This document shows, in pieces, positions 6,651-33,132 of a DNA stretch of 64,000 bases (the stretch's first letter is position 1; each line of letters begins with the position of its first letter). Source of the stretch: Desulfocapsa sp. Lineage in GTDB: Bacteria; Desulfobacterota; Desulfobulbia; Desulfobulbales; Desulfocapsaceae. The notes beneath the pieces were generated by a model. The model saw only the letters and a list, made by a program, of their open reading frames with translations. It made no database searches and was not told the DNA's origin. The position numbers were made by a program, and so were the translations under genes. The stretch covers positions 34,813 through 98,812 of the forward strand of contig JAESPV010000023.1 in NCBI GenBank assembly GCA_016765495.1. Direction: 5' to 3'.

Positions 6651-6679
6651 AATTTAGTTACGTCTAACATTATTGTCAA
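6651..6679 (-). promoter_or_regulatory. Flavodoxin promoter with overlapping iron-box-like palindrome
   Basis: On the minus strand TTGACA (6679-6674), a 17-base spacer and TAAATT (6656-6651). The element TTAGACGTAACTAA (6667-6654) overlaps the -10 box and matches the shared core TTAGG-N4-GCTAA at 8 of 10 fixed positions. Spacing is identical to the promoters at 16146, 19050 and 27204. Confidence 0.7.
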
Positions 6680-6724
6680 CTATAAACTTCATTTACCTCC
6701 TCTATCCATTGGAATATACTGTTT

Positions 6725-8335
6725 TCATCCTCTCTCCTTCCAATCAGCCCTGTTTCTTTTCCGCACAAGCACTTTGCGGAAGAACCAGTCATAGCTCCCG
6801 GTGAGGACAGATAATAGCAGGACAAGTCCCCCAAGAGGCACAACCAGCCATGTATATTTTCCAAGGATGGGTCCAAAAATTCTCCCGTTATGGCATTCAA
6901 AGAGGAAATGCCACAGAGAGATACCGGTATTCTTAATTTCATGTGGCATCGGCAGGTGAGGAATCACTTTACTGTTCAGGATTTGAATTCCATTCCCATA
7001 ATCTGCCCAAAACAGGGGTTGCCCGTCATATACAGCAGCACCGGATGCCATCCCACCATACAGTATGCGACCGACACCAGGCCCTGCCGGTAGAGGATGC
7101 CCCTGTATATCCCGGCCCTGCTGTTTTTGCCTGTCCCAGATATAGAGACCACTGAACGAGCCGACAAGAAGTCTGTTACCATGAAGAGGCTCAAGAACAA
7201 CGGTTCCCATACCATGTACCGGCACCTTTATTTCTTGTGGCTCAAAGGGTTTTGACAGGTCGGCAGGAGCTTTGAAGAATCCTTTGTTGGTGGCGAGCAA
7301 TAAGGCATCCTCATCCTCCAGATAGACGGCTTTATGAATTTTAAAATGCCAGTTGTCATCCCCTGACTTTGGATACAACCAGGCTGGAACATGGAGGTTA
7401 ATGATACTTATCATCAAGGGCGGCCTGACAAACATACCCGTGAGCGCAATAATTGCCAGAAAGAGAGCAGAGTAAATTCCCAGTTGAAGATGATATTTGT
7501 GGAAAAACCGAAAATACCGTGGCTTACGGCGAGTTTTGTATTTCTTCCGGCTCCATGGAATGAACCAGATATAGAGAGATGAAACCGACAAAAACAGCAG
7601 GATCAGCCCAACTATATCCATAAACAGTTTCCCCGGTAAACCCAGAACAGAACCATCGTGGATTTTCAGGAGAAATCGAAACATTGCCACCCGATCCGGG
7701 CCAGAATCTGCTGACAGCAAAGTGATTTTTTGAAAAGAGCTCACAGACTGACCCGTATATGCCAAATATCCGCCATGGGCTGTAAAGGCATAGATTCGCT
7801 TGCCTGCCTGTACCAGGTCTATAATTTCTTCCTGCTGCAGATCTTTATTTTCCACTGTCCGCCAATTCCCTTTGGCTGGATCACAAACATACAGCCCGCT
7901 GCGGGTGCCTGCAAAAAGCATATCACCTTCATCTGCATTTTCCTCAACAAGCAGCAGCGCCCTGGTGTCCATATTATAGGCGCTGACCGGCAGACCGTCT
8001 GACATTCTCTTAAAGCTTTGTCCGCCATTCAGGCTTTTAAAAACTCCGGCTTTACCGGCAAGATAGAGAGTGGAAGGATTGTTGGCAGTTGTGGAAAAAA
8101 CCGCCTCCCGAAAGGAAAAGCGGTTCCAGTCTGCATACCGATAAACATCTGGCAGCAAAACAGCGGGGACAGTTATGCCGCGGAGTAGAGAAGGATGATT
8201 AATCAGGACACCGGTTATCCCCATCATAAGAAAATAGAGGAGAAAGACCAACCCTGTGTACTTGTGGATCTTCTTTGAGACGACAAAAACGAAGCGATAA
8301 CTACTGGTTAACGGAGTATGAGCGTGGGATATCAT
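6725..8335 (-). CDS. PepSY-associated transmembrane protein with propeller-like periplasmic segments
   Basis: 536 residues. An N-terminal helix (HKYTGLVFLLYFLMMGITGVL) has the His-containing pattern of PepSY_TM proteins. Two further membrane pairs lie near residues 255-280 and 300-325, and one near the C-terminus (WLVVPLGGLVLLLSVLTGSYDWFF). The loops contain repeated short units such as NPSTLYLAGKAGVFKSLNGG and LFAGTRSGLYVCD, like beta-propeller blades. PepSY_TM proteins are often found with iron and heme uptake and may act as membrane redox or ferric-reductase-like proteins. It follows the DUF4198 gene by 38 bases at the end of the heme/ECF row. The function is inferred from family and context. 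Confidence 0.8.
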   Translation of the reverse strand: MISHAHTPLTSSYRFVFVVSKKIHKYTGLVFLLYFLMMGITGVLINHPSLLRGITVPAVLLPDVYRYADWNRFSFREAVFSTTANNPSTLYLAGKAGVFKSLNGGQSFKRMSDGLPVSAYNMDTRALLLVEENADEGDMLFAGTRSGLYVCDPAKGNWRTVENKDLQQEEIIDLVQAGKRIYAFTAHGGYLAYTGQSVSSFQKITLLSADSGPDRVAMFRFLLKIHDGSVLGLPGKLFMDIVGLILLFLSVSSLYIWFIPWSRKKYKTRRKPRYFRFFHKYHLQLGIYSALFLAIIALTGMFVRPPLMISIINLHVPAWLYPKSGDDNWHFKIHKAVYLEDEDALLLATNKGFFKAPADLSKPFEPQEIKVPVHGMGTVVLEPLHGNRLLVGSFSGLYIWDRQKQQGRDIQGHPLPAGPGVGRILYGGMASGAAVYDGQPLFWADYGNGIQILNSKVIPHLPMPHEIKNTGISLWHFLFECHNGRIFGPILGKYTWLVVPLGGLVLLLSVLTGSYDWFFRKVLVRKRNRADWKERG

Positions 8336-8373
8336 AGGGTGCCAAGAAAAACGATTCTCTTTTTCACCATCTG

Positions 8374-9066
8374 TCAGTTTACCTGGAATGAGATGGTTGC
8401 GGTGTATTTTTCCTCAAGAACCTTCGCCTTTAACTCTTCGGAAGGCAACCTGCGAACCTCAGCCTTCAGTATCCACTGACCGGATCGTAATAATTTTATA
8501 TGGGTAATCCCTTTGGCATTGGTTTTGCTCGTCCAGGCATAGGCCTCTTTGGGGGAAAAGCCAATATAGGTTGCAAAAACATTGCAAAACCTTGCAGGTT
8601 TATCATCAATAAGCACCTGTACTTTCAAGTACTCCCCTGCGTTAATCAATGCCTTGGTGTGGTTTTCAAAGTAAAGGCTTAGAACTACATTTTCGAGACC
8701 TTCCATGGAGACGAGTTTATGGCGGATTTTCCCATTTTTCTCAACCATGGTGTAAAAACCATGCTTCGTGGCAGCGGTAACAATATACCCACCTTCTTTT
8801 CTAAGAGCCAAAGGGGTCACCAGAAAACCGCCTTCTCCAGCTTCCAGCTCTTTCACCACACCATCTGGTTGAATAAGATTAAATTCGACCAATTTATCCC
8901 TTTTAAGTACGTCAGACACGGGGAATTTATGGCCAAACCCAAAATACATTTTTGTTTGTGCGCCTAATCTCCCTCTAAAAGACGGCGAATAATCAGTGGC
9001 GTTCAACCAAAGATTATGACACTGGCCGATGGATGCTGAAAAAAGCAGAAAAATTCCTGCTGCCAA
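8374..9066 (-). CDS. Exported DUF4198 protein (NikM/NikK-like metal-associated protein)
   Basis: About 230 residues of the DUF4198 type, periplasmic proteins often encoded with nickel, cobalt or iron transporters. Mature-form features are HNLWLNATDYSP right after a predicted signal-peptide cleavage, a GFGHKFPVSD motif, and a C-terminal strand-rich part (VQVLIDDKPARFCNVF). The TTG at 9066 is the first standard start in the open frame, but it leaves out the basic n-region. The frame is open to a stop at 9111-9109 and encodes IIFRSVNCRISVLAAGIFLL. A rare ATA/ATT start at 9102 or 9099, just after AGGGAAG, would restore a full signal peptide. It sits between truncated ecfA and the PepSY gene. Confidence 0.8.
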   Translation of the reverse strand: MAAGIFLLFSASIGQCHNLWLNATDYSPSFRGRLGAQTKMYFGFGHKFPVSDVLKRDKLVEFNLIQPDGVVKELEAGEGGFLVTPLALRKEGGYIVTAATKHGFYTMVEKNGKIRHKLVSMEGLENVVLSLYFENHTKALINAGEYLKVQVLIDDKPARFCNVFATYIGFSPKEAYAWTSKTNAKGITHIKLLRSGQWILKAEVRRLPSEELKAKVLEEKYTATISFQVN

Positions 9067-9292
9067 TACAGAGATACGACAATTTACGGATCGAAAAATT
9101 ATACTTCCCTATTTTAGAGTTAATATGGGTTGTTATTCCCATTCCTTCAATTAAAAATATACCTTGATACCAGTGCAGTAAAATGAGCCAGGACGTCCCA
9201 TCACATGGCGTCAACACAGAACGAAACGTTCCTGATATCCTTTTTTAGCGCACTAACAGTTATTATGCTGCAAATTATTTCGTGCGCGTTCC

Positions 9293-10420
9293 TTATCTGA
9301 TTTCCAGAATAGCAGCCCCAGTTGCCTGTAAAAGCTCATGATCGTGGGTTGCCATAACAACGGTTGCTCCCTGTTCACACAGTTTCTTAATTTCATTCAC
9401 TAAGCATCCTAATTGATGTCCATCCATTCCGCTGGTTGGTTCATCAAGCAGCAGGGTACTCTCAGAGATTCCTTGCAACCTTGAAAATGCAGCTGCCAGC
9501 ACAAGACGCTGCATCTCTCCACCAGACAGTGTAAGCGGATGACAATCTCTTAATGGTTCAAGATTAAAACGGGTTAACCAGTCCTCCTGCGCACCTTTAT
9601 CCGCATTAATTTCTTCTCCAACTGTGGATGCAAAAAGCTGTAAATCCGGATGCTGAAGAGCCAAAGCTTTTACAGATCCGGGATTGGTGAACGTAATCAT
9701 TCCTTCACCGATTTTAAGCAACCCAAAAAGAAGACTCAGCAGGGTAGTCTTTCCACAACCGTTTTTTCCTGTTATGGCAACCACTTCGCCTGAGTAGACT
9801 TTTGCATTCATATGACGCAGCAGCCAATCCTGTTTCTTTCCATGACGAAACCCTACCTGATCCAATGTAAACACGGGAGCTGATCCATTTCGGCATGACG
9901 ATTTTTTACTATCCCCCCTTTCTTCCGGTTTGGCGGATACCTGAAAACGAAGTCCAAACTGTTTGCAAAATTCCAGGTCATCGAGTTTGTCCGTACTTCC
10001 CTTGTAAACAATGCTCCCCCTATCAAGAACAACCAGTTGATCAACCAGTTCCCGCATCCATAAAAAACGATGCTCGGCAATGACAATTGTTGTTCCTTTC
10101 GTTTTTTCTTTGTGGAGAAACTGCAGGAGGATCGCAATGCCGTCCGCTGACAAATTTGCCGATGGTTCATCAAGTACAAGAATTCTCGGAGCAAAACTCA
10201 TTGCCGTACCAATGGCCACCCGCTGCTGTTCCCCGGATGAGAGGGTATCCAGCAGCCGATGACGCATTTTTTGTAAGCCAAGAGTGTTCAGCAGCGCATT
10301 TACCTGTTTATCTGATTCTTCATGCTCATGCTTTTGACGAACCTTTGAAAGGAGGAGCTCCTGTTCCACACGAGCTGAGAAAAACTGATGCCGCGGGTCC
10401 TGAAAGACAGACCAATACAC
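9293..10420 (-). pseudogene. ECF-type duplicated ATPase, N-terminally truncated by fusion to ecfT
   Basis: 375 residues starting at GTG 10420, inside the overlapping ecfT frame. It opens at the Q-loop of the first ATPase domain (SVFQDPRHQFFS), so the first Walker A and about 85 residues are missing. The rest is intact: signature LSSGEQQRVAIG, Walker B ILVLDEPSANL, then a complete second domain with Walker A GKNGCGKTT, LSGGEMQRLVLA and LLLDEPTSGMD. Double ATPases of ECF vitamin/metal transporters need both sites, so this copy is probably not functional as read. An alternative is that an assembly gap removed the sequence. Confidence 0.8.
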
Positions 10421-10740
10421 ATAATGGGCAACATGGTGAGCGTGAGTTTCAGGTACTCCATAACCTTTGGTGGTCTACTCAGGATAAGGGCTTCAACAAA
10501 CAGATACATCACCATGGAAATCACAAAAAAAGCACCAATAAACATCAGTATTCTTCCTTGCCCGGCCAGGATCAGGTAACTCATGGCAGTAATTGTGAGG
10601 ATTCCCAGCATCAGCTGACTTTCGATTAGCGGCCCGATTAATGAAAACATCAGCGCCAATCCCATTTTCACCCTGGGGTCAAGGGAATGAAAAAAGGATT
10701 CTCCATATTGTGACACCTGTAACCTGGATACCATTTCCAT
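10300..10740 (-). pseudogene. EcfT-like transmembrane protein, C-terminally truncated
   Basis: ECF transporter coupling subunit homologue. Residues 1 to about 112 are normal (SLDPRVKMGLALMFS, four hydrophobic helices, SRPPKVMEYLKLTLTMLPIM). The reading then enters the ecfA region out of frame and ends after about 35 unrelated residues. Intact EcfT proteins are about 230-260 residues and carry the A-R-G coupling motifs in the part missing here. I chose the start at 10740 (MEMVSRLQ), 30 bases after the S-component stop. The break near 10395-10410 is shared with ecfA, which points to one deletion that removed both the end of ecfT and the start of ecfA. Confidence 0.8.
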
Positions 10741-10769
10741 GGGTAATATGCCTGTATTATGAATGTGTT

Positions 10770-11324
10770 TTATGTTGTTAGTAATCCTGCACGACTCAGC
10801 TCTTTTGACAATTTCACAGCTGCCCACAATCCAATCAGCACGCCGACTGCAGAACCTGCACTGTTAATAAGGATCAGCGTCCAGGCAAGATCAGTCTCTG
10901 CAAAGCCAATCCACCATGCTATTAGTGCACCAAAGACAATAACACTAAGGCGGAAGGTGAGTACTGCAATGATAAGAGCTGCCTGTTTTTGATAGCCGCC
11001 CAAGAGCCAGGCAATGCAATCGCCAGCCAGCCCCGCAAGGATAAAGGTTAGGAACATGAAGGGATGAGCAGGGAAGATAAACCCGTAAACCGTTCCCATG
11101 CAAACGCCGAGAAAGGTTAAAAAGCCAAGGCGTGGCAGGCGCATAATTGACATCCCGATGATAATGGCCTGTATCATGCCGAGCACAAGCGAACCGACCG
11201 CAGGAATTTTAGAGGCGAGCAGACCCAGCACAACTTTAATCAGAACTCCCATAACGATACAAAGTGCAGCTGTTATTCCTACTGCGCTGTACTCTTTAAA
11301 TGTCCAGCTACTGAACAACTTCAT
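10770..11324 (-). CDS. ECF transporter S component, MptD/Trep_Strep-like
   Basis: About 184 residues with five to six hydrophobic helices, beginning MKLFSSWTFKEYSAVGITAALC. The length, helix pattern and the run YGFIFPAHPFMFLTFILAGLAGDCIAW resemble the MptD family of substrate-binding ECF S components. AGGAG lies 11 bases before the ATG at 11324, which decides the start. It is followed by ecfT and ecfA, the normal ECF gene order. The substrate is not known. In this operon, next to heme-degrading enzymes, a tetrapyrrole, its breakdown product or a metal is an attractive guess. Confidence 0.75.
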   Translation of the reverse strand: MKLFSSWTFKEYSAVGITAALCIVMGVLIKVVLGLLASKIPAVGSLVLGMIQAIIIGMSIMRLPRLGFLTFLGVCMGTVYGFIFPAHPFMFLTFILAGLAGDCIAWLLGGYQKQAALIIAVLTFRLSVIVFGALIAWWIGFAETDLAWTLILINSAGSAVGVLIGLWAAVKLSKELSRAGLLTT

Positions 11325-11332
11325 TTGTTTGT

Positions 11333-11875
11333 TTACTCCTGAGAAATTCTCTGCATAAGCTTTTCTGCAAATACCCATGAATCCTGCTTGGTCATTCGTG
11401 TTTTAAATGGAATTTCTCCACTCTGTCCCATCATTTTATAAAATTTGACCAGCCCTTCTTTGTCTTTATCATCAAGCAGCAGGGGATTAATCTCACCACC
11501 AAGCAGACCGGCATGAACAGGGGGTGCGGGAAACAGATTAATAAGCGGCATGATATACTCCCATCCGCCATGTACCTTGCCTCTCACAAACACTCCGCTG
11601 GTATCGATGGCTACTCCAAATACCGCCGTCTGTTTAGTGCTCAGAATATCCAGGTAGCACCCCACGTATTCGTTGATGGACGGTAACACGGTATGGCTGT
11701 AAATTCCGGAGCCAAGCAGCACCACATCAACATCCTGCGGATCTGTCATTTCCTCTGCCGGGGCCACTGTCACCTCACCTTCAAGACGCTCGCCAATCCA
11801 ACGACCTGTCTGCATGGTTGATCCATACTTGCCGACACAGACAATCAGATATTTTGTTTTTTCTTTTATAGTCAT
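11333..11875 (-). CDS. Flavodoxin-domain protein, HemG-like
   Basis: 180 residues with a flavodoxin fold start: KYLIVCVGKYGSTMQTGRWI, where GSTMQT is the phosphate loop. VVLLGSGIYSHTVLPSI and AVFGVAIDTSGVF follow. This resembles flavodoxin_5/HemG-type proteins that oxidise protoporphyrinogen with menaquinone, or act as FMN reductases. It lies between the radical SAM heme enzyme and the ECF S component, nine bases before the latter, so it is probably its redox partner or a tetrapyrrole reductase. The start at 11875 gives the clean family N-terminus; the ribosome-binding site (GAGACG) is weak. Confidence 0.75.
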   Translation of the reverse strand: MTIKEKTKYLIVCVGKYGSTMQTGRWIGERLEGEVTVAPAEEMTDPQDVDVVLLGSGIYSHTVLPSINEYVGCYLDILSTKQTAVFGVAIDTSGVFVRGKVHGGWEYIMPLINLFPAPPVHAGLLGGEINPLLLDDKDKEGLVKFYKMMGQSGEIPFKTRMTKQDSWVFAEKLMQRISQE

Positions 11876-11941
11876 TTTTATTTCGTCTCTGCCATATTCT
11901 GTTATGCGCAACAGCCGCACTCTTCGGATGAGGTTATCCGA

Positions 11942-12019
11942 TCACGCAGAGATCATTACTTTGGGATCTTCCTGTAGTTTCTCTGTGACTGTCTTTTTTA
12001 GTTCATCGCTTATATGCAT
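11942..12019 (-). CDS. Possible small protein, perhaps frameshifted
   Basis: A 25-residue ORF (MHISDELKKTVTEKLQEDPK, then VMISA) with a good AGGGAAAG site before its ATG, in the gap between hutW and the flavodoxin-like gene. In another frame, sequence directly after it reads RDRITSSEECGCCA and stops at 11904-11902. One base change would join both parts into a protein of about 39 residues ending in a Cys-rich tail. No family is recognised. It may be a real small operon member or chance. Confidence 0.35.
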   Translation of the reverse strand: MHISDELKKTVTEKLQEDPKVMISA

Positions 12020-12031
12020 GAGTTCTTTCCC

Positions 12032-13606
12032 TTATTTGTTCTTTTTTGTCATTAAGCCAAAATAGTCTATCAGGGCCTGAGACATGGTTACCGTCCAGAA
12101 CTCCCCGGCTTCCGTCATTTCAAGCCAGCCGTTTTTGTGATGTATCACAAGGCCTGTCTTCTCCCATTGCTCAAGAAGTGGCTTAAACATTTCTGAAATA
12201 TCCAGGTCAAACTTTCTGCCAAGAGTGCGAAGGTTCACTGTTCCTTCTTCCATACAACCCACAAGCTCGCTGAAAAAAGCTGTTAACTCAGGAAGTTTCA
12301 TAACAGTGCCAATGGGTTTTTCACCGGCTTCAACCCGTTTAAAATAGTCGGGCAGCTCTCCCTCCTGAAAAAAATGATGCCCATGCAAACGCCCCCCTGC
12401 CCCACAGCCAAAGGGAATACAGGTCGCACCAAAACGGGTAAATGAGTTATATCGGTTACGTTCTCTGCTTGATCTGCCCCAATGACACAGTGACAGCCTG
12501 TTTAAACGGGCCTCCTGTGCCATCTGCCGTCCAACACTGAACATCTCGGCCTGAGTGGATATCTGAGCAGCCGGTGGCACTGTTCCCTCTTCAATGGCAT
12601 TGGCAAGAGGACCTCCATTAAAGATATTCAGCTGATACATGTCGCAGCCGTCAAGCTCAGTATCTTCAATGAAGGTGCGCACATCCTCCTGCCAGATATC
12701 CATGGTCTGATTAGGCAAACCATAAATCAGATCAATGATCACGGAGGCCTGGTTTCGATCACAGAGTTTTCCAAGCAGCTCAAGAATTGCTTCCCGATTT
12801 GCCCGTCGTCCCATCAACCTGCGGACTTTGGTATCAAATGTCTGTACGCCGAGTGAAAAGCGATTTGCCCCGCCTCGAATACAGGCATCAATTTTGGCTT
12901 CTGTGAAATTGTCTACCCGACCTTCAATCGTGATTTCACAGTCATTGGCAAGGGGCAGGTGTTTACGAACACAGACAAGCAGCCGTTCAAGATCTCCTGC
13001 TTCAAGATCTGTCGGGGTACCGCCGCCAAAGTAAACTGCATGGATTGGTCCTTCCTGTACCGCTGCCATTTCACTGGCCATGCTGATTTCGTGGAGCAGT
13101 CCATGACTGTAGGTTCGGCTGGAATCCTCTTCCAGCTTATACATGTAAAACCCGCAAAACCGGCAATGATTGCGACAAAACGGGATGTGTATATACACTG
13201 TGCGACGTTTGGAAGGATCAACCTTGTTCATGCATTTGGCCCAGGTTTCCAGCACCTTGTCTTTTTCCAGATAGGTTCCGCCAGCTCCTGCATGAACTGC
13301 TGTCTTTTTCTCAAAGGCATAGCGGAGAGAATCCACACCTTCTTTGGCAAAAAATGTTGAAATTTCAGGATGAAGCCGACTGGTCGAACGATTCATATCT
13401 CCCCAGTTCCCCGGCTTCTTTTTCTTCTCCCCCCCAGCTTTACTTTTTGTGCCCATACGTTTTTCTTTTGCAAGGCGAATAAGTTCGGGCGTAATAACTC
13501 CAATCCCCTTCATGCGGGCATATGTCTCCACACCTTTTTTGGCCATTGGCCGGACAAAGGGTGGTACCTTTTCAAAATATGCTTCTGCTTCTTCAGTCCA
13601 TTGCAC
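12032..13606 (-). CDS. hutW: Radical SAM heme-degrading enzyme, ChuW/HutW-like, with PCP_red domain
   Basis: About 524 residues. The N-terminal 55 residues (QWTEEAEAYFEKVPPFVRPM and LIRLAKEKRMG) look like the PCP_red helical domain. The radical SAM core begins VYIHIPFCRNHCRFCGFY, with the Cys-x3-Cys-x2-Cys cluster motif near residues 144-151, then YFGGGTPTDL, ITIEGRVDNF and FSLGVQTFDT as in the HemN/HutW branch. ChuW/HutW opens the heme ring without oxygen, releasing iron and a linear tetrapyrrole (anaerobilin). GGGAG before GTG 13606 favours this start over TTG 13642. It overlaps the HugZ-like gene by 14 bases. HemN-type coproporphyrinogen oxidase is less likely, given the neighbours. Confidence 0.85.
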   Translation of the reverse strand: MQWTEEAEAYFEKVPPFVRPMAKKGVETYARMKGIGVITPELIRLAKEKRMGTKSKAGGEKKKKPGNWGDMNRSTSRLHPEISTFFAKEGVDSLRYAFEKKTAVHAGAGGTYLEKDKVLETWAKCMNKVDPSKRRTVYIHIPFCRNHCRFCGFYMYKLEEDSSRTYSHGLLHEISMASEMAAVQEGPIHAVYFGGGTPTDLEAGDLERLLVCVRKHLPLANDCEITIEGRVDNFTEAKIDACIRGGANRFSLGVQTFDTKVRRLMGRRANREAILELLGKLCDRNQASVIIDLIYGLPNQTMDIWQEDVRTFIEDTELDGCDMYQLNIFNGGPLANAIEEGTVPPAAQISTQAEMFSVGRQMAQEARLNRLSLCHWGRSSRERNRYNSFTRFGATCIPFGCGAGGRLHGHHFFQEGELPDYFKRVEAGEKPIGTVMKLPELTAFFSELVGCMEEGTVNLRTLGRKFDLDISEMFKPLLEQWEKTGLVIHHKNGWLEMTEAGEFWTVTMSQALIDYFGLMTKKNK

Positions 13607-14087
13607 TGACAAGCTCCCGGACTTCTTTTTGAATCGGTTCAATGCGCGGGCTGCTGGTTACCCCGCTACGTTCTGAAACCATGATTCGCAAAAGCGGCAA
13701 CGATTTTCCCGTACTGAGATAGTGTTTTTTATACCCGCTGTACTCACCATTTTTCAGTTGCAGCTGTGCTTCAAGATTATCCCAGGCTCTTGCCACATCT
13801 ACCGGATTGGTCAGTTTTTCAAAGGCAGCAATACCAAAACAGGAAACGGCCCGATACCGTCTACATTGTGCATCAGAATCACAGATCTTGACACAAACAG
13901 CCCGTGTTGAAGCAAGACATTCTGCTGTTTTCCCTCTAGGATGTACCAGTCCACAGAGATCACCATTTTCCAGAAAATAGCTGAACTCTATGGCGTAGGG
14001 ACGTGCATCAGGATCGACCATACAGAGTGTCGCCCAACCAAATCCTTCCAGCAGAGCATCAATTTCATTGTCTTTCATTTCTCTCAT
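13593..14087 (-). CDS. HugZ/HutZ-like pyridoxamine 5'-phosphate oxidase-fold protein
   Basis: 164 residues with the split-barrel fold pattern of FMN- or heme-binding proteins: WATLCMVDPDARPYAIEFSY, then GLVHPRGKTAECLASTRAVC and YRAVSCFGIAAFEKLTN. HutZ/HugZ proteins bind or degrade heme and are commonly encoded with HutW. GGAG lies eight bases before ATG 14087. The end overlaps the radical SAM gene, so the two are probably translationally coupled. I infer a heme-binding or heme-delivery role. Confidence 0.75.
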   Translation of the reverse strand: MREMKDNEIDALLEGFGWATLCMVDPDARPYAIEFSYFLENGDLCGLVHPRGKTAECLASTRAVCVKICDSDAQCRRYRAVSCFGIAAFEKLTNPVDVARAWDNLEAQLQLKNGEYSGYKKHYLSTGKSLPLLRIMVSERSGVTSSPRIEPIQKEVRELVSAMD

Positions 14088-14201
14088 GGAAATACTCCCT
14101 TAATATGTACATTCAGCGAACCCCCGAACCTCTTGCAGAACCGATTCCAAATTCGTGCCAGCGAGACAAACATTCGAACGGAATCGGTCTACAAACTTCG
14201 G

Positions 14202-14567
14202 TTACGCTGCCTTCTCTTTACCGCAGCTGCAGTTCTTGCACTTACCGCAACCACCATGGCCGCGCGTTCTCTTTTTGTAAACAATCACTTTCCCGGTATC
14301 ATGGATTATATCCAGCCCTTTTTCTCCAGTGAGATATACGTTTTCTTTTGGTAAACCTGTCAGCCCCAGCAAATTATTAAATGCGTGTTTTGAGTCTGGC
14401 TCCACATCTGTTATTTTAGCAGTGTGTATAAAAATATTACCCTCTCCTGAATACGACTTCGCCATTACCATGGTGAGTTGTGCTGCAGTATCAGTGCTAA
14501 ACATTCCCTCAATCTTGATATGAAGATTACCGTTACGTTGATCCATATTGATTGCTGCCATGCCCAT
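14202..14567 (-). CDS. Hypothetical protein with Cys-rich metal-binding tail
   Basis: 121 residues, family not recognised. The body (MGMAAINMDQRNGNLHIKIE to about residue 100) is a mixed alpha/beta domain. The last 20 residues hold His and four Cys in the pattern HGGCGKCKNCSCGKEK, a likely metal or cluster site. AAGGAG before the ATG at 14567 decides the start; a longer open frame would run into the DUF2325 gene. It lies between DUF2325 and the HugZ-like gene in the same direction, so it is probably part of the iron-box operon. Confidence 0.6.
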   Translation of the reverse strand: MGMAAINMDQRNGNLHIKIEGMFSTDTAAQLTMVMAKSYSGEGNIFIHTAKITDVEPDSKHAFNNLLGLTGLPKENVYLTGEKGLDIIHDTGKVIVYKKRTRGHGGCGKCKNCSCGKEKAA

Positions 14568-14626
14568 TTCGATACTCCTTTGTTGTTTTGTTTTTTTGTT
14601 GGTTTGGTGTTTTAGTTCCTGGTTGC

Positions 14627-15907
14627 TTACTGCACTATTTCCGTCAAGCCTTTTGCAAGGGAAGACAATCCCGAACTGCGCATCATCACATAGGGTTTCT
14701 GGTACTGTTTGCATATTTTCTTAACGCAGATACATGCATCATGGCTGATGCAGTCTATGGGGCAGAGAACTGCATCAGCGGTGCTGAGCATCTTTGGTAA
14801 AATGGCACGGGACGCCTCTTTTCCACCATCATGGTGCAGGAAATTCCCGCCACGATTCTCTATGAGCTGCCGATAATGGGATACCATTTTATGCAGGCCT
14901 CCAACATAGAGTATGGTTTTTCCGCAAAGATCAGAGCCGGGGCAACAGCTTGTCTTTTGATCATCGCAGGTTGAGCAGTCGCATGAGGAATCCAAACTAC
15001 CAAGCATTGCAGTCTCCATGGACATAACTTCCTGTTGTAACAGCGAGAGGTTCTCCTCAAGTTGTCTGTTTTTCGACATGATCTCTTCAGAATCAGCATT
15101 TGCCAGTTCGAACAGTTCACATTTGTCTGCAAATTTCCTTTTAAACGCCTCAACCTCTGCAGTAAGTTCAGCGTTTCGCTTATTGCTTTCTCTTAGCTGG
15201 TCCTTTAACTTTCCGATCTCTCCTGACAGGCTGTTGCCTGCCAGTTCTGATTGAAGGCGAATATTTTTTTCTACTATTTTTTTATTCTCTGCTACAAGCA
15301 GAACGCTCTCTTCCTGCAGGTTTTTGAGCTTTTCCATCTCACAGGCCATGGCCATTTGCTCTTTTAGATGAATGTGTCTTTCTGACACCAGCACCTCTTC
15401 AAGCATGGTTGCTTTATTCGCTATCTCCTTATAAAGACGATGTTGCTGCTGGTTAACAACAATATTATCGTGGCCCATCATATGGTTTTGCCCATACACT
15501 TCAGCTCGCACATCCTTGGACAAAAGTTGATTTGTCATAATGGCCCAATATGCCCCGGCAACTGTTCCTTTTTTCACGTCCTGCTCCCAAAGTTCGAGAG
15601 CTTCATCATCGTTGACTGCAGCATACCGTTTTATCGCTACACGGTATCGTCCATCCAGAAATTTATGCATGGCCCTCGACTTCAAATTTCGACTTGCCGC
15701 AAAACCAACGAGAGTTAAATGAATCTGGTAATCACTGTCCCCCGGTTCCATCTGAAAAATCTTTTTCCTGGAAAATCTTCGCAAATCTGAACGGCGCAAA
15801 CAGGTTCCCAGTATGGAACAGTGATACCCCTCACCAACTTCCCATAGTTTTTTTCGCCGACTGGCAGTATTTTTCGTTTCCTCTGGTAAAGCAGTTTGTT
15901 CACACAT
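14627..15907 (-). CDS. DUF2325 coiled-coil protein
   Basis: 426 residues. The N-terminal part includes Cys in a GEGYHCSILGTCLRRSDL pattern. A long coiled coil spans about residues 160-300 (heptads rich in Glu, Lys and Leu). A Cys cluster follows (CDCSTCDDQKTSCCPGSDLC), then the DUF2325 domain: ILYVGGLHKMVSHYRQLIE, GNFLHHDGGKEASR, CPIDCISHDAC and RSSGLSSLAKGL. DUF2325 proteins are common in anaerobes but have no assigned reaction. GGAGGG before ATG 15907 sets the start. It is the first gene after the iron-box promoter at 16146-16174, so it is probably iron-regulated. A role in metal or redox sensing is possible, inferred from the Cys-rich segment. Confidence 0.85.
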   Translation of the reverse strand: MCEQTALPEETKNTASRRKKLWEVGEGYHCSILGTCLRRSDLRRFSRKKIFQMEPGDSDYQIHLTLVGFAASRNLKSRAMHKFLDGRYRVAIKRYAAVNDDEALELWEQDVKKGTVAGAYWAIMTNQLLSKDVRAEVYGQNHMMGHDNIVVNQQQHRLYKEIANKATMLEEVLVSERHIHLKEQMAMACEMEKLKNLQEESVLLVAENKKIVEKNIRLQSELAGNSLSGEIGKLKDQLRESNKRNAELTAEVEAFKRKFADKCELFELANADSEEIMSKNRQLEENLSLLQQEVMSMETAMLGSLDSSCDCSTCDDQKTSCCPGSDLCGKTILYVGGLHKMVSHYRQLIENRGGNFLHHDGGKEASRAILPKMLSTADAVLCPIDCISHDACICVKKICKQYQKPYVMMRSSGLSSLAKGLTEIVQ

Positions 15908-16145
15908 ATGGCACCCTCCTACAATGTTCAATTATTTTATTAGTTACAACTAAACCACAAACCCAAAAAAAATCTCGCTGCCCCGACAGGCTGGTCAGTC
16001 TGTCGGGAGAAGGAGAGAACACAATCCTTTCTACCTACGTGTAATGCATAGGCCAGTAGAGCTGTAAAAGCATCCCCACTGTCAAAGCAGTTTGTTTGGT
16101 AACTTTTCTCCACAATACACACCCTAATGTTTGCGGCATGTCAAT

Positions 16146-17770: not shown

Positions 17771-17781
17771 CAGCTTCCTAC

Positions 17782-18765: not shown

Positions 18766-18820
18766 TGTAATTATTGGCTCATATATTTATTCTTCTTTAG
18801 TCTTTGTGTATTTTTCAAGG

Positions 18821-27203: not shown

Positions 27204-27232
27204 TATTTAGCATACCCTAATTTACCTGTCAA
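27204..27232 (-). promoter_or_regulatory. Promoter of fbpABC with iron box
   Basis: Minus strand: TTGACA (27232-27227), 17-base spacer, TAAATA (27209-27204). TTAGGGTATGCTAA (27220-27207) overlaps the -10. It is near-identical in sequence and spacing to the promoter at 16146-16174. Confidence 0.75.
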
Positions 27233-27429: not shown

Positions 27430-28446
27430 CTATAGATCGGTTAGAGCGACAGCCCATTGCCTGAGCATATCGGGAAATTCAATGACACTGGAGTCAATGT
27501 AAAAAGGAAGATTGTAAATGGCCATATTTTTGATTGCTGGAACATCAGCAAAGGCCGGATTATTTTTAATGGAACTTGCGAGAACCTTTTGCACTGCATA
27601 GACATTTCCGGTTATTACAATAATATCTGGTTTGGCTTCAATCATAGGGTCAAGAACAGGTCCCGTCCTCTTTTTGGCAACCGGATAATGCCCTTTGTCT
27701 GCTTTACCATTCGCTGGCAAAAAAACATCTCCCACGTTGATACAGCCCATGGGCTTCAAGAAGAAATTGTCTGAATAGCCGCCAGGTGCCTCAACTCTGA
27801 CCATCGCTTTGCCCGTGTCATTCTGGTATGTTCCGCTAAGAATAAGAACCTTTTTCCCAAGTATTTCTTTAGGAAGTTTTTTCTGCGCTTTAGCCAGATT
27901 TTTATTGTATTCTTCGATCAAAGCATCAGCTTTCTCCTCACGATCAAGAAGTTTAGCTGTCTGTCTTATGGCTGATTCCACCCCCCGCAAAAAATCGACA
28001 TAATCGATTTTCACCTCCAATCCTTCCAGAATAGAGGAGATCTTTCCAGGGTTTACCTTTGGCTTATAAATGCAGAAATTATCGTTCTTTTCAACGATCA
28101 CTCTTTTAACATTAAATTTTTTCAGACCATTGGGAATAGCTTTCTTATTTGAACTGACTACATGATTCGGGCAACCAAGGATCTGGCTGGCAGTTTTTAT
28201 CTCTCCGGACATTGGCCATATGGAGCCTCGCACCGACATAGCCACCGGCAGGACGTCGAGATTGTAGGCAATATTGACCACCCGGTCACCGATAATAATG
28301 ACGTCAACTATTTCCGGAGGCGCTGCCTTCGTCGTCCTGGTCCTCGCGTCTGCTGTTTTTCCAAGCATTACAAACACTGTGAGAAAAATAAGGCTTAGAG
28401 CTGTCAACGTTCTAACTTCTTTTGGCGCAAGTAATACTTTCCTCAT
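27430..28446 (-). CDS. Periplasmic binding protein of the siderophore/B12 (FepB/BtuF) type
   Basis: 338 residues from ATG 28446 (AAGGAG nine bases upstream). A signal-anchor-like helix (LSLIFLTVFVMLGKTADA) precedes VDVIIIGDRVVNIAYNLDVL. Later PAIKNMAIYNLPFYIDSSVI fits the PF01497-type fold with its long central helix (SAIRQTAKLLDREEKADALI). Cys residues in ILGCPNH and DNFCIYKP and KPMGCINVGD are unusual for the family. No membrane or ATPase genes of that type lie next to it, so it is an orphan here. An iron-box-like element at 28475-28488 lies just upstream. Confidence 0.75.
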   Translation of the reverse strand: MRKVLLAPKEVRTLTALSLIFLTVFVMLGKTADARTRTTKAAPPEIVDVIIIGDRVVNIAYNLDVLPVAMSVRGSIWPMSGEIKTASQILGCPNHVVSSNKKAIPNGLKKFNVKRVIVEKNDNFCIYKPKVNPGKISSILEGLEVKIDYVDFLRGVESAIRQTAKLLDREEKADALIEEYNKNLAKAQKKLPKEILGKKVLILSGTYQNDTGKAMVRVEAPGGYSDNFFLKPMGCINVGDVFLPANGKADKGHYPVAKKRTGPVLDPMIEAKPDIIVITGNVYAVQKVLASSIKNNPAFADVPAIKNMAIYNLPFYIDSSVIEFPDMLRQWAVALTDL

Positions 28447-28474
28447 GCTAACATTCTCCTTTTTGGTAGTTTGT

Positions 28475-28488
28475 TTTGCCAAACCTAA
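28475..28488 (-). promoter_or_regulatory. Iron-box-like element before the FepB/BtuF-like gene
   Basis: Minus-strand TTAGGTTTGGCAAA matches the core TTAGG-N4-GC(T/A)AA. The associated -35/-10 hexamers are poor. Confidence 0.55.
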
Positions 28489-28619
28489 CTTGATGGTAAA
28501 AAAAATCAGTCTCAAGGATAAATCGCAAGCACGAACCTTGTGAAAATACCCAGGTTGGGACTTTCTGAAAAACTTTCTGGAATTCTTGATTTATGTGACA
28601 GGATTACAGAAGTAACGCA

Positions 28620-29858
28620 CTAATCTTTATCGATAAAGGAGAGGGCAATCAGACCAAAAAATCCGCTTACAAGAACCAGAGCTAACTCACCTTTATTGAT
28701 TGATAATTGTTTTTTTCTTCTGGATATCAGGACAAATAAAGCCAATGCACTTAAAATACCCACCAGTGACCATAGACCACCAAACTGTAATTGCAAGTCT
28801 GCCTGCCCCCTGTATGGATTGTCAAACCTGAGCTGAAAGGGGAAGAGCAGGTCTCGTGAAATCGTAACCAGAAGCGGTGTAGGATTGTGCCGTTCAAGTT
28901 CATAGGAACGCAAAGGCTTATAATCACTATCCATTGCTGTTCCGTAAACCATTTGCAATCCACTGCTGATTGCCGTTTTGTACATGGGATTTACAAGAAA
29001 TTTAAAATCCATGTTGTCAGGTTTGTATGTATCAAGCGGTAGAGAAATAAGACGATAATTATCGTATGAAATCAGATACACATTCCCTTGCCTTGTGATA
29101 ACAGTTCCGTAAAATTCTTTGCGTTTATTTTCAGAAATGACAATATCCTGAATATCAAGTGTTGAATCTATCGGGGTTTTAACAATTTCAGGTTTATCTA
29201 AAACTCTTTTGATATGAAAAACCTGCCCCTCGCTGTCACGAACAAAAAAACCTTCATCAAATGGTTTGAGATTCGTGGTTTTTCCGCCAATGACGGTGGC
29301 TGGAAAGATAAATCCCTCCTTGTTCAACTTTGCAGTAAAACTATCGGTCAAGCCGGTATCGATCCGGTTAAAATCGGCATTGATAAATTCCATGGCCTTA
29401 TCGGTGAACCGGAAGACATCTTCGGGAAAGGGCATGATTGCCACTTCTGGATTGTTGTTGAAAAGTGGATAGAGTTCGATCTGCTGATGATGGCCATCCA
29501 GATGGCGACTTTTAATTTCCAGCCCCTGTTTACCGGCTTTAATGGTCTCTTTATCAAAGCTCTTTCCATCAATACTTACCGGTAGCAATTTTTTCCTTTC
29601 AAGATTCTTATAGTAAAGAAAGGGCAGCTGGAGCTCAAATTCTGCTCGGCTGAACGCTGTACCTTCTTCGTTCATATAGTTAAAACGATGCCCCCCCAAT
29701 GACTCCCGGTAAATAAACTGCTTCTGCGGAGGACTGAAGAAGAGCAACGGGTTACCAACTTCCTGTCCAAACACCTTATCGAATCCGGCAGGTAAACCAT
29801 AACTCATGGCAACAATCGCGAGAATGACAGCGCTGTAGCGTGAAATATGTTTCATCAT
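28620..29858 (-). CDS. DUF4857-like membrane-anchored protein of an ABC cassette
   Basis: About 412 residues. One N-terminal signal-like helix (AVILAIVAMSYGLPAGF), a large exported middle (SPPQKQFIYRESLGGHRFNY, IMPFPEDVFRFTDKAMEF) and two C-terminal helices (LVGILSALALFVLIS, GELALVLVSGFFGLIALSFI). It resembles DUF4857 proteins, which have no assigned activity. The start overlaps the permease stop (TGATG), with GGAAAGAGG upstream. It forms a three-gene operon with the permease and ATPase, which suggests one complex; its role there is unknown. Confidence 0.65.
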   Translation of the reverse strand: MMKHISRYSAVILAIVAMSYGLPAGFDKVFGQEVGNPLLFFSPPQKQFIYRESLGGHRFNYMNEEGTAFSRAEFELQLPFLYYKNLERKKLLPVSIDGKSFDKETIKAGKQGLEIKSRHLDGHHQQIELYPLFNNNPEVAIMPFPEDVFRFTDKAMEFINADFNRIDTGLTDSFTAKLNKEGFIFPATVIGGKTTNLKPFDEGFFVRDSEGQVFHIKRVLDKPEIVKTPIDSTLDIQDIVISENKRKEFYGTVITRQGNVYLISYDNYRLISLPLDTYKPDNMDFKFLVNPMYKTAISSGLQMVYGTAMDSDYKPLRSYELERHNPTPLLVTISRDLLFPFQLRFDNPYRGQADLQLQFGGLWSLVGILSALALFVLISRRKKQLSINKGELALVLVSGFFGLIALSFIDKD

Positions 29859-30526
29859 CACACACCTCTTTCCTGAAATCTGCGACCAGATTCAAAAACA
29901 GAAAGCAGTGCCAACGGTACAAGTACGATCAACCAGGGAAGTGCAGGAATAAACCAACCATAGCCAGAGCCGGAAAACAGCATGATAATGAGTACTGCAA
30001 AGACCAGAAGCAGAAATATTCGTCTTGACCAGTTAATCTCAAGAAGTACGGTAACGCCTCCAAAATATGCAAGCAGACCAGCCAACATCCAAGGCAGCAT
30101 CGTCGGCAACGAAGAGGCCGCCACTTCAACAGGAAAATATATTTTCAATGTCAGATAAATAAGCGCAGCATCAAGTCCGCAAATCATCAGGTAGAGCAAA
30201 AAACCGGAAAGCAGGCTGAAAAACAGCATGACCACGCGACTGGTCGGCAAATGCAGGGAAAGGCGTAAGCGCCGCCCAAGCATCTCTGGTACAAACTGGG
30301 CAGCAGCCAATACCAGTCCGGTGACAAGGGGGAGATAACGTATGTCCTGATAGAGTACTGTCTGTATATGAATAGCTTGGTACCACACCATTTCGGCATG
30401 TTCCGAATGCATCTGCTGGCGAATGTCGAAGAATATTTTCAGACAAATACCACAATTAAGCAGTAAAGCTGCTATAAAATAGTGTTTGAGTTTGAGCCAC
30501 TCTTTGAGCAGGAGGGACGAAAGCAT
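29858..30526 (-). CDS. ABC-2-like transporter permease
   Basis: 222 residues, about six membrane helices, beginning MLSSLLLKEWLKLKHYFIAA as ABC-2 permeases do. GRRLRLSLHLPTSRVVMLF follows the second helix. It starts two bases after the ATPase stop and overlaps the DUF4857-like gene. The substrate is unknown. Confidence 0.75.
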   Translation of the reverse strand: MLSSLLLKEWLKLKHYFIAALLLNCGICLKIFFDIRQQMHSEHAEMVWYQAIHIQTVLYQDIRYLPLVTGLVLAAAQFVPEMLGRRLRLSLHLPTSRVVMLFFSLLSGFLLYLMICGLDAALIYLTLKIYFPVEVAASSLPTMLPWMLAGLLAYFGGVTVLLEINWSRRIFLLLVFAVLIIMLFSGSGYGWFIPALPWLIVLVPLALLSVFESGRRFQERGV

Positions 30527-30527
30527 A

Positions 30528-31406
30528 TTAATATTTCCCCATCAGGCCGATAAAGCCGTCTTCCAGAGTCATGTCCACTTTGTGCAGGTCTTTGACCTGG
30601 ATACCAAGCGTAGTCAGATGCTGGACAACCTGTTCTGCTTCCGCAAAGGAGTATAGTGAAACCTGGTCACCCCGCTGTTCAATCCCTTTGATAATATCGT
30701 CTTTGTGTAAACTGAGTTCACTTTCATTTACAAAGACATACTTGTGAAAAGAGCCCATGAAATCATCAAGACCGGTTTGCATTATCTCACCCTGATCAAT
30801 AAAAAGCATCGTATCCACAAGTTGTTCTAAATCCTGGATAATATGACTGGTGACAAATATTGTCTTGCCACCAAGAGCAGAAAAATCATGCAATACATCA
30901 AGAAAAAGACGTCGATACCCTGCATCAAGTCCCATGGAATAATCGTCCAGGATCAGCAAATCAGGATTCTGAGCCATTATCACCCCAAGCACAACCTGAG
31001 ACCGTTGACCACAGGACATATTGCCCACTTTATGACCATGTGGCAGGCCCATTTTTTCAACCAGATTAAAAAAAACATCTCTTTCCCAGTTGGGATAACA
31101 CCCGCGATAAAACTTTTCGGTTTGAGAGATGGTCATAAATTCATAGGCCAGATGTCCCTCATGCAAGAGACCGATCCGCGTTCTGGTGGCCGGAGGCAGG
31201 TCATGCGAATCCTCACCAAGTACCAGACATCGACCACCAACTGGCTTGAGAAAGCCCATCAGAATATTGACAAGAGTCGTTTTTCCCTGGCCGTTCTTCC
31301 CCAGCAGACCACAAATCGACCCCTCAGGAATCGAAAAATTCAGATCCTCATAGATGACTCGTTCACTGTACTGATGACGAAGGTTATGTACTTCAATGGC
31401 GTTCAT
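30528..31406 (-). CDS. ABC transporter ATP-binding protein, atypical signature
   Basis: 292 residues. Walker A is GKNGQGKTT and Walker B LLILDDYSMGLD, with Asp where the catalytic Glu normally sits. The signature is MSCGQRSQVVLG rather than LSGGQ. The switch His is present (VTSHIIQDLEQLVD). The C-terminal 80 residues form an accessory domain. The altered catalytic residues suggest slow or regulated ATP hydrolysis. It is the first gene of the ABC/permease/DUF4857-like operon. The ribosome-binding site is weak. Confidence 0.85.
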   Translation of the reverse strand: MNAIEVHNLRHQYSERVIYEDLNFSIPEGSICGLLGKNGQGKTTLVNILMGFLKPVGGRCLVLGEDSHDLPPATRTRIGLLHEGHLAYEFMTISQTEKFYRGCYPNWERDVFFNLVEKMGLPHGHKVGNMSCGQRSQVVLGVIMAQNPDLLILDDYSMGLDAGYRRLFLDVLHDFSALGGKTIFVTSHIIQDLEQLVDTMLFIDQGEIMQTGLDDFMGSFHKYVFVNESELSLHKDDIIKGIEQRGDQVSLYSFAEAEQVVQHLTTLGIQVKDLHKVDMTLEDGFIGLMGKY

Positions 31407-31572
31407 ATACTGGCACCGGTGATAAATACTAACCCGACAAGTCGGAAACTTTTAGTGTCGCTGGATAAGTACCTTGTGGGGATATGTAGGTTAGTAATTT
31501 CATTCATGCTCTTTAAACTTCTTGTTTTTTATTGCTGCTTTTATGGAGTAAGGTACTAAGACACTTATGGAT

Positions 31573-31737
31573 CTATCTGTCCGAAGATTCACTTTCTTTT
31601 TTGCAATCCTTTCCTTTTTTAGCAGCACAGGTCGAAGAACCGCAGGAACACCACTTTCCTCCAGCGATTTTACGATACAGATACCAGACCGCAACAAGGA
31701 CTATTGCAACGGTTATAACGATGTCCCACAGTTCCAT
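31573..31737 (-). CDS. FeoB-associated Cys-rich membrane protein
   Basis: A 54-residue protein: N-terminal helix MELWDIVITVAIVLVAVWYL, then YRKIAGGKWCSCGSSTC and AAKKGKDCKKESESSDR. One membrane span followed by a Cys cluster (four Cys: C-x-C, C-x4-C and one more) matches the FeoB_associated family (PF12669) found with ferrous iron transporters. It lies on the minus strand between the DUF4198 gene and the ABC ATPase, 1.5 kb from divergent feoAB. The site before ATG 31737 is a G-run rather than a clean ribosome-binding site. It follows a terminator, so it may have its own promoter. Role inferred: helping iron release at FeoB. Confidence 0.8.
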   Translation of the reverse strand: MELWDIVITVAIVLVAVWYLYRKIAGGKWCSCGSSTCAAKKGKDCKKESESSDR

Positions 31738-31759
31738 TCACATTGCCCCCCCAAAAAAT

Positions 31760-31797
31760 CCCACGGATAAAGTCAAGTATTCACCCCTATCCGTGGG
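31760..31797 (-). terminator. Terminator of the NikL-like/DUF4198 operon
   Basis: CCCACGGATA (31760-31769) pairs with TATCCGTGGG (31788-31797). On the minus strand the stem is followed by six T. It lies 15 bases after the DUF4198 stop. Confidence 0.82.
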
Positions 31798-31811
31798 TTA
31801 CCAAATTCAGG

Positions 31812-32627
31812 TTATTTCATATCCTTTGCCTGCACCCAGATCACAGCGTCACGAGAGCATTTTTTACCCTTGTATGTGTAATCAGGATCAAGATCCAGTG
31901 CAGCAAATCCCCACCAGCCTGCGCGTGGAATACCATAGGTGAAAACACCATTATCGTCAGCAAAAATGGTCTGTAATACAAACGCATCCTGCGGTGCCTC
32001 AACTTCAGCTTCCTTTGCAAAACTGTTTGAATCCAACACCATCGCATGATTCAAAAACTCGACCTCAATTTCTGCGTTTGGTACAGGTTTTCCATTGAAC
32101 AACACCCGTCCCTGAAAAACATTACCAGTCCAAGTGTCATAGGGTTTTGTAAGAGGTACAATTTCAGTTGGCAGTCCAACCGGCTCATTCCAGGCACCCG
32201 GTTCTCCACCGACATTGACAATGACCTTGGTATTCTGCTTGATATAAAACGAGTCTGACTTCTCCCAATAAGGTTCTGGAATCAGACAAAAAATATGATC
32301 ACCACCACGAGCCTTGTATGTTGTTTCCCAGGCCTTTCCTGTATTCCCTATTCCTTTCCAGGAAATTGGTTGCAAGGTGTCAAGCAAATCCGTACGCTTT
32401 GGGGCATTTTCCCCCCGGGTACGAAGCACAAAAAACTGCTCTGCCTTCCCCATGTCCATGGTATGCCCTGCGTCAAAAGGGTGAGTGAACACCAGTTTGA
32501 GTGGAATCGTACCACCTTTGGTCACGGCCATTTCAGGGGTGTAGATCATCTGAAAATGGGCGGATGCCATGGAAGCCGATCCGATAATTGCAGCTCCTGT
32601 CAGCAGGGTAAGTAGTTTTGTTTTCAT
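31812..32627 (-). CDS. Exported DUF4198 protein (NikM/NikK-like)
   Basis: 271 residues from ATG 32627 (AAAGGAG upstream). The signal peptide ends ASMASA before HFQMIYTPEMAVTKGGTIP, leaving His as the first mature residue, a feature of NikM/NikK-type metal-associated proteins. THPFDAGHTMDMG and IVPLTKPYDTWTGNVFQGRV match the family, and the end is a carboxypeptidase-regulatory-like strand domain. It probably binds a metal in the periplasm to help uptake. Divergent feoAB and the NikL-like gene upstream suggest ferrous iron rather than nickel; this is inference. Confidence 0.82.
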   Translation of the reverse strand: MKTKLLTLLTGAAIIGSASMASAHFQMIYTPEMAVTKGGTIPLKLVFTHPFDAGHTMDMGKAEQFFVLRTRGENAPKRTDLLDTLQPISWKGIGNTGKAWETTYKARGGDHIFCLIPEPYWEKSDSFYIKQNTKVIVNVGGEPGAWNEPVGLPTEIVPLTKPYDTWTGNVFQGRVLFNGKPVPNAEIEVEFLNHAMVLDSNSFAKEAEVEAPQDAFVLQTIFADDNGVFTYGIPRAGWWGFAALDLDPDYTYKGKKCSRDAVIWVQAKDMK

Positions 32628-32723
32628 TTTGTACTCCTTTTTCATAAGTAAAATTATTCTATAAAAAGACCAAGCTCTTAATCTCAACCACCAGGACAAA
32701 ACTGAGGCTAATGCCAGCGGTTA

Positions 32724-33038
32724 TTATTCAACTATTTCTTTACCTGGAACCTTAATTTGATGCCCTTCTCCTGCATCAAACATGACGATGTAATCACCTT
32801 TTGGCTTATCAAAAGTGAACTCGGAATCCTCATTCATTTTTCCTTCCAGCAGGATTCTGCCATCCAGTGTTTCAAGACGTATAGAAACGCCGGCTGCTGA
32901 TGATCCATCCGAGAAACCGCCTTCACAAGTGATGGTGTCATCACCATTGTCAAAGCAAGAACATAATGGAGTATGCGCCTGAGCAATAGTCGCACTTACC
33001 AGTAAAGATACTGCTACAACAAAAGTTTTTAAAAACAT
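32724..33038 (-). CDS. Small exported NikL-like protein
   Basis: 104 residues. Signal peptide MFLKTFVVAVSLLVSATIAQ and A, then HTPLCSCFDNGDDTITCEGG, again with His at the mature N-terminus and three Cys. A short beta domain with GVSIRLETLDGRILLEGKM and VMFDAGEGHQIKVPG follows. This is the NikL-like accessory protein pattern, seen upstream of DUF4198 genes. AGGAGG precedes the ATG. Its promoter (33082-33110) faces away from feoA. Confidence 0.75.
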   Translation of the reverse strand: MFLKTFVVAVSLLVSATIAQAHTPLCSCFDNGDDTITCEGGFSDGSSAAGVSIRLETLDGRILLEGKMNEDSEFTFDKPKGDYIVMFDAGEGHQIKVPGKEIVE

Positions 33039-33081
33039 TGAAAAACCTCCTCATAATTTTTCTGATTAGTAAACCCATGCG

Positions 33082-33110
33082 AATCTAGCCCGACCGATTA
33101 TAGCTGTCAA
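33082..33110 (-). promoter_or_regulatory. Promoter of the NikL-like/DUF4198 operon with degenerate iron box
   Basis: Minus strand: TTGACA (33110-33105), 17-base spacer, TAGATT (33087-33082). ATCGGTCGGGCTAG (33098-33085) sits where the other promoters have the iron box and matches 7 of 10 fixed positions. Confidence 0.6.
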
Positions 33111-33118
33111 GTATATTA

Positions 33119-33132
33119 TTAGGCATGGCAAA
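33119..33132 (+). promoter_or_regulatory. Iron-box-like element upstream of feoA
   Basis: TTAGGCATGGCAAA matches the core TTAGG-N4-GC(T/A)AA at 9 of 10 positions. It lies between the divergent NikL-like and feoA promoters, so one bound protein could act on both. Confidence 0.6.

Follow-up and report, generated by a model that had tools for sequence, protein, structure and literature searches.

The closest known counterparts of the 14-bp palindrome TTAG-N6-CTAA, which recurs in the promoters of an iron-gene cluster of Desulfocapsa sp. (Desulfobulbales), are operators of DtxR-family metalloregulators. In the 19-bp box of IdeR, repeats 1 and 3 are contacted by a single dimer, and a half site likewise takes up a single dimer, according to work on Saccharopolyspora erythraea IdeR (PMC8464063); that study puts forward TTAGGNNNNCCTAA as a 14-bp consensus and reports a half site at one promoter, whose function "remains to be investigated". 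For MntR of Bacillus subtilis, PMC11275975 describes one dimer on an 18-bp operator, with one site overlapping a -35. Treponema TroR, as described in PMC2628430, has an 18-bp dyad before one tro operon, responds to both Mn and Fe in T. denticola and, in T. pallidum, has an operator that overlaps the promoter. DtxR-type metal regulons are already known, as are single-dimer sites in the case of MntR; for IdeR such sites have been proposed. New here are the half-site layout and the list of genes that it precedes, in a stretch of 64,000 nucleotides (contig JAESPV010000023.1, positions 34,813 to 98,812; referred to below, at its full length, as the window). A literature search on DtxR gave no DtxR regulon in Desulfobulbales among the matches listed, a search of titles with most subscription journals outside its coverage.

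A sequence-only reading of the window had described four minus-strand promoters with a shared in-register element, and this description held. Each consists of TTGACA, exactly 17 bases and a -10 hexamer, which is TAAATT at 6679-6651 and 16174-16146, TAAGTA at 19078-19050 and TAAATA at 27232-27204. TTAG-N6-CTAA sits at identical register in all four, as TTAGACGTAACTAA (6654-6667, upstream of a flavodoxin gene), TTAGGCAATGCTAA (16149-16162), TTAGGGCAGGCTAA (19053-19066) and TTAGGGTATGCTAA (27207-27220). The combined pattern TTGACA-N6-TTAG-N6-CTAA was found exactly four times in the window as against 0.00 expected from 100 shuffles of the window, and the 3.81-Mb genome holds no exact match beyond these four. 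A fifth exact operator, TTAGTTGTAACTAA (15940-15953, minus strand), had escaped the earlier reading and lies between the 16174 promoter and the start of a DUF2325 gene. Genome-wide, TTAG-N6-CTAA occurs at 13 places, compared with 91 for a backward control, and five of the 13 fall within one 20.6-kb stretch of the window, where 0.07 would be expected. A sixth copy, TTAGGGAATCCTAA (L027:8521-8534 on contig C3), ends 11 bp before the start of feoC. The sequence-only reading had named as a difficulty a motif equally frequent upstream of unrelated genes; when this was examined for exact boxes, each of the seven remaining genomic copies proved to overlap an open reading frame (ORF) instead of lying in a clear upstream gap. 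Five are internal to ORFs of 182-532 aa (one each on C15, C42 and C65, two on C83), another falls at the 3' terminus of an ORF of 212 aa (C25) and the last is within a doubtful 104-aa ORF (C14).

The box resembles the IdeR/DtxR operator in that TTAG-N6-CTAA is identical with its first 14 of 19 positions (1-14), which hold repeats 1 and 3, and in that iron genes lie downstream. The earlier comparison with DtxR/IdeR sites thus applies to one half of the IdeR box, a single-dimer site, but not to the full two-dimer box, TTAGGTTAGSCTAACCTAA. TroR is likewise a DtxR-family repressor, but several promoters of one iron cluster carry the element here, as opposed to the one tro operon.

Conservation was assessed in 49 upstream regions from other genomes of the order, comprising those of 16 orthologues of small104 (the first gene of a run at 28620..33038), five of the MoxR-like gene and 28 of the DUF2325 gene. 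The set left aside the own genome, a second small104 copy in genome G034 (which has no locus), weaker small104 and MoxR matches, L144 (the gene of L168 again, split in two), the partial L182 and those DUF2325 matches that lacked a locus; two of the 49 regions spanned just 46 and 110 bases. TTAG-N6-CTAA was present in 31 of the 49 regions, 43 times in all, with an exact box at 10/16 small104, 3/5 MoxR and 18/28 DUF2325 orthologues. When the spacing of the arms was scanned, no copies were found at 0-5, 7-10 or 12 and one each at 11, 13 and 14. Four other arm pairs gave at most two copies at any spacing in the same regions, and 66.6 kb of downstream sequence contained no TTAG/CTAA pair at spacing 6. 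The inner-flank G and C of the box are only partly kept in the conserved sites. Together with 23 FbpA loci (own, partial and weak matches excluded), 72 regions held 49 boxes, nine of which are preceded by a TTGACA-like -35 exactly 6 bases away, with at most two boxes at every other gap from 0 to 29; the other 40 have no -35 in register. The operator is thus conserved, and some of the sites also keep its placement within the promoter. Because a second-dimer arm of any kind was seen in just one of the 43 conserved sites and was missing from 42, we propose one dimer per site, unlike the two-dimer box of IdeR.

As the sequence-only reading had stated, no DtxR or Fur gene lies in the window. Elsewhere in the genome there are two DtxR-family genes, which flank a feoA-feoA-feoB-feoC operon on contig C3 (FeoC by Pfam), and both products have PF01325 and PF02742 above cut-off. 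The first, dtxR1 (L027:4631-5137), codes for a RASSVT recognition helix. The second, dtxR2 (C3:37345-37806), lies some 600 bp after feoC and codes for a 154-aa protein with an SGPSVT recognition helix and a predicted MntR/DtxR fold. DtxR/IdeR proper has three domains, whereas dtxR2 has no C-terminal SH3-like domain: its DtxR Pfam domains end at residue 129 and the predicted last element is a helix. In this it is like MntR, a two-domain protein of about 140-155 aa, which is its best fold match and among its best sequence matches. By alignment with MntR, the putative metal ligands of dtxR2 are Asp15, Glu18, His84, Cys107, Glu110 and His111, invariant in 12/12 aligned DtxRs; Cys107 corresponds to DtxR Cys102. 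Although the Asp8 ligand of MntR is kept, the position of its Glu99 is a Cys in 12/12 aligned sequences, dtxR2 scores below the NCBIfam MntR cut-offs and the targets here are iron genes, not Mn transporters.

Several relatives link a dtxR2-type gene to the box or to the genes behind it. The five best matches to dtxR2 outside its own genome, in a set of 249 genomes, are in G114, G062, G161, G057 and G034 (60-87% identity, 184-281 bits; the next match has 168 bits), and all five genomes carry small104 with E below 1e-30. The sequence-only reading had suggested looking for a regulator gene preceded by the box. In the own genome the feoC box has dtxR2 behind feoC, and in G142 the arrangement is direct: the box is followed by a dtxR2-type gene (65%), DUF2325, orf14202 and flavodoxin genes, with the MoxR-DUF2201 pair some 2 kb upstream. 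In G034 the box is followed by an ATP-binding cassette (ABC) gene and dtxR2, the MoxR-DUF2201 pair being about 4 kb off, and G161, G057 and G055 combine small104, a dtxR2-type gene and divergent FeoAB. In 10/37 genomes searched, a DtxR gene was located no more than 6 kb from one of these genes, against 0.6 expected by a rough estimate; the ten linked genomes were computed, the remaining 27 were assessed by eye on the basis of place lists, and the place of DUF2325 in G142 is approximate in this count. Among genomes with at least two DtxR matches, 20/37 hold these genes, as against 22/212 of the other genomes (Fisher p about 1e-8), a comparison uncorrected for kinship or genome completeness. A box lies within 400 bp upstream of 5/54 tabulated non-own DtxR genes (in G142, G116, G056, G069 and G231). 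A midpoint-rooted DtxR tree, with many long branches, separates a dtxR2-like group (A) from a dtxR1-like group (C); the G142 protein, which reads SGASVT, lost its A label to the motif used.

A stricter pattern was also scanned over a collection with one genome each of 84,980 species and gave 21 places. Six of these are clusters like that of the window (five with small104/DUF4198, one with dtxR). Outside the phylum, at five places, all in Thermoflexus, the promoter and box precede metal ABC genes (L043, L048, L051, L059 and L060), and at two, in Spirochaetes, they precede FTR1 iron-permease genes (L044 and L058). Pfam searches covered two of the five Thermoflexus loci, where they gave ZnuA, the two Spirochaete loci, where they gave FTR1, and one DUF4198 locus; the remaining places were assigned by eye.

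The linkage to dtxR2 and the conservation of the box at orthologous promoters argue for the regulon of a DtxR-type Fe2+ repressor that the sequence-only reading had proposed. We consider it highly probable that a DtxR-family repressor activated by Fe(II) uses the boxes as its operators, and the most likely candidate for this regulator is dtxR2; dtxR1 may share its sites. The analysis establishes sequence, position, conservation, linkage and predicted fold; binding, the metal and the direction of regulation we infer. With sufficient iron, a metal-loaded dimer would occupy the 14-bp TTAG-N6-CTAA between the -35 and -10 of strong sigma-70-type promoters and would keep RNA polymerase away from them. 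As iron falls, the promoters would open, and the systems for ferric and ferrous uptake, enzymes of heme use, flavodoxin and the AAA/DUF2201 pair would be made.

A number of observations weigh against this view. In the own genome, dtxR2 lies outside the cluster of the window, and the feoC box has no recognised promoter. The full promoter-plus-box pattern with up to two mismatches occurs 19 times in the genome as against 45 for the backward control, and the narrower core TTAGG-N4-GCTAA shows no enrichment (4 places, 6 for the backward control); the signal of this core is its position, not its number. Among the 49 orthologous upstream regions, 18 have no exact box (one of them just 46 bases long). 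At FbpA orthologues the box is present in 5/23 upstream regions and missing from 18/23, and a control arm pair, TTGA/TCAA at spacing 3, likewise reaches 5; the FbpA set, the weakest case, gives the box weak support. No metal link was seen by eye at 8 of the 21 places in the wider collection. Moreover, dtxR1-type genes adjoin small104 or DUF2325 in G069, G063 and G067, and four genomes with a box at DUF2325 (G036, G162, G224 and G236) have one DtxR match each, of a third, generic type. The single generic DtxR of these four genomes means that no single orthologue accounts for all boxes.

The last two observations also favour the idea that the boxes belong to dtxR1, or are common to all DtxR paralogues, with dtxR2 in a minor or local role. 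Arguing for dtxR2 instead are its five best non-own matches, all of which are in small104-bearing genomes, and the dtxR2-type genes directly behind the box in G142 and in a box-led run in G034. In addition, the element upstream of the own dtxR1, TTAGTCTAA, has spacing 1, not 6. As not all of the linked DtxRs are of the dtxR2 type, we place DtxR-type control at high probability and regard a dtxR1 or shared operator as rather unlikely, if still a serious alternative.

Control of the cluster by a Fur-family protein appears improbable. Fur controls comparable genes in many bacteria, and the genome has five FUR-family genes. These are, however, on contigs other than C3, and the contigs that bear them carry no exact box. 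Near the promoters, no match to either of two 15-base Fur patterns was found at up to two mismatches, and the best match to a Fur 19-mer (4 mismatches) falls within the PepSY_TM gene. To our knowledge, TTAG-N6-CTAA is not a Fur pattern. Still less probable is local regulation by the product of the divergent PadR gene at 16337, which adjoins the 16174 promoter: no PadR match was obtained at E 1e-6 in 12 related loci (stretches of 7.9-17.7 kb), several of which have boxed clusters. Finally, the TAA within the right arm also serves as the -10, but it is hardly credible that the boxes are no operators and reflect just the look of strong sigma-70 promoters in DNA rich in A+T, given the preference for spacing 6 (43 copies, with a single copy at each of three wider spacings), the absence of an in-register -35 from 40/49 boxes in relatives and the shuffling expectation of 0.00.

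Beyond this locus, DtxR-type control would supply iron regulation in Desulfobulbales with a conserved operator and a candidate regulator, and the many natural half-site promoters would bear on the question of single-dimer site function as raised in PMC8464063. We tentatively suggest, as one possibility for the order and with less than even confidence, that a short DtxR protein with mixed MntR/DtxR ligands, not Fur, runs an iron-starvation regulon through single-dimer half-sites, several of them in the -35/-10 spacer, and that this regulon includes the MoxR-like/DUF2201, DUF2325 and DUF4198/DUF4857 genes as well as cyclic di-GMP turnover through the GGDEF-EAL gene behind fbpABC.

The genes behind the boxes had been described as nearly all iron-related. 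This stands for the Feo and ferric ABC systems, HutW and flavodoxin. The poorly known families AAA (MoxR-like)/DUF2201, DUF2325, DUF4198, DUF4857 and small104 are putatively connected to iron starvation, through just the box and synteny. The 6679 promoter precedes a short-chain flavodoxin gene (6136..6582, minus strand; NCBIfam TIGR01753, 148.1 bits, cut-off 123). Flavodoxin stands in for ferredoxin under iron shortage, sparing iron. The boxes at 15940 and 16149 lead a minus-strand run (6725..15931) that, from its orientation and gaps, may form a single operon. It comprises DUF2325 (14627-15931), orf14202 and orf13593, the radical-SAM heme-degradation enzyme HutW (12032-13642; TIGR04107, 504.8 bits, cut-off 400), Flavodoxin_5 (11333-11920), orf10770, an ABC ATPase (9293-10420), DUF4198 (8374-9066) and PepSY_TM (6725-8335). 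Both HutW, an anaerobic heme enzyme, and FeoB exceed curated cut-offs. HutW has an N-terminal PCP_red domain (PF08369, residues 15-59), named for a protochlorophyllide reductase subunit. In Campylobacter jejuni, PMC9426514 describes a DUF2325 protein that is PerR-regulated and adjoins katA.

Behind the 27232 promoter, on the minus strand, are the genes of a ferric-iron ABC transporter, FbpA (26091-27095), FbpB (24397-26082) and FbpC (23366-24487), followed about 15 bp after fbpC by a GGDEF-EAL gene (20381-23350); given this short distance, cyclic di-GMP turnover may share a transcript with ferric uptake from the boxed promoter. FbpA matches the Fe(3+) binding protein 7li0 in a PDB search (E 1.8e-113). 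The best NCBIfam names for FbpA would make it a phosphonate binder, but they score below cut-off and the PDB search points to Fe(3+), so this assignment was set aside.

Three further copies proposed by the sequence-only reading are inexact. A one-mismatch box, TTAGGTTTGGCAAA (28475-28488, minus strand), lies ahead of a Peripla_BP_2 protein, the likely start of which is downstream of the box within its listed ORF (27430-28515, minus strand). A degenerate promoter and box with three mismatches (33082..33110, minus strand) lies upstream of the small104-DUF4198-ABC-DUF4857 run, and a second one-mismatch box, TTAGGCATGGCAAA (33119-33132, plus strand), is between the divergent small104 and feoAB promoters. 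Neither the degenerate promoter (10 in the window at up to three mismatches, 6.56 expected) nor the one-mismatch boxes (6 against 3.45 expected; 15 against 22.45) are above chance, and the mismatch-tolerant counts thus leave all three copies weak on their own. In two relatives, however, the left part of the 33119 box, TTATTAGGC, is conserved, and the 33110 promoter retains its TTGACA together with some of its right arm, which gives these two copies some support. A fourth element, at 18834-18821, was rejected as it has the left arm only, and a one-mismatch site on contig C27 from the genome scan was unsupported.

The run downstream of the 33110 promoter (28620..33038, minus strand) consists of small104 (32724-33038), DUF4198 (31812-32699), an ABC ATPase (30528-31406), orf29858 and DUF4857 (28620-29861). 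small104 is a probable exported protein of 104 aa, and all 11 sequences aligned share its AHTPLCSC motif unchanged. Its predicted structure, with beta strands and a predicted local distance difference test score of 87, matched nothing in the PDB at E<=0.001. The small104 gene of G067 (L074 / L252) has an in-frame stop codon. On the plus strand lie FeoA and FeoB (33125..36023), the listed FeoA start at 33125 overlapping the 33119 box. A promoter, TTGACT-17-TATACA, is present at 33158-33186 (plus strand), with TTGACT-17-TAAACA in two relatives; because of this promoter, its retention in the relatives and an ATG at 33227, the true start of FeoA is probably 33227.

The 19078 promoter precedes the AAA ATPase gene (17782-18765, minus strand), the "MoxR" of the sequence-only reading, which is barely above the cut-off of Pfam AAA_5 and is paired with a DUF2201 gene (17108-17815, minus strand). 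The leader of the AAA ATPase gene (18765-19050, minus strand), about 285 nt long, contains no clear ORF, and Rfam at gathering thresholds gave no match in it. The sole match of the Rfam scan at these thresholds is a cobalamin riboswitch (RF00174, 130 bits) at 19116-19298 on the plus strand, upstream of a precorrin-2 C20-methyltransferase gene (19562-20290), and it stands back to back with the boxed 19078 promoter.

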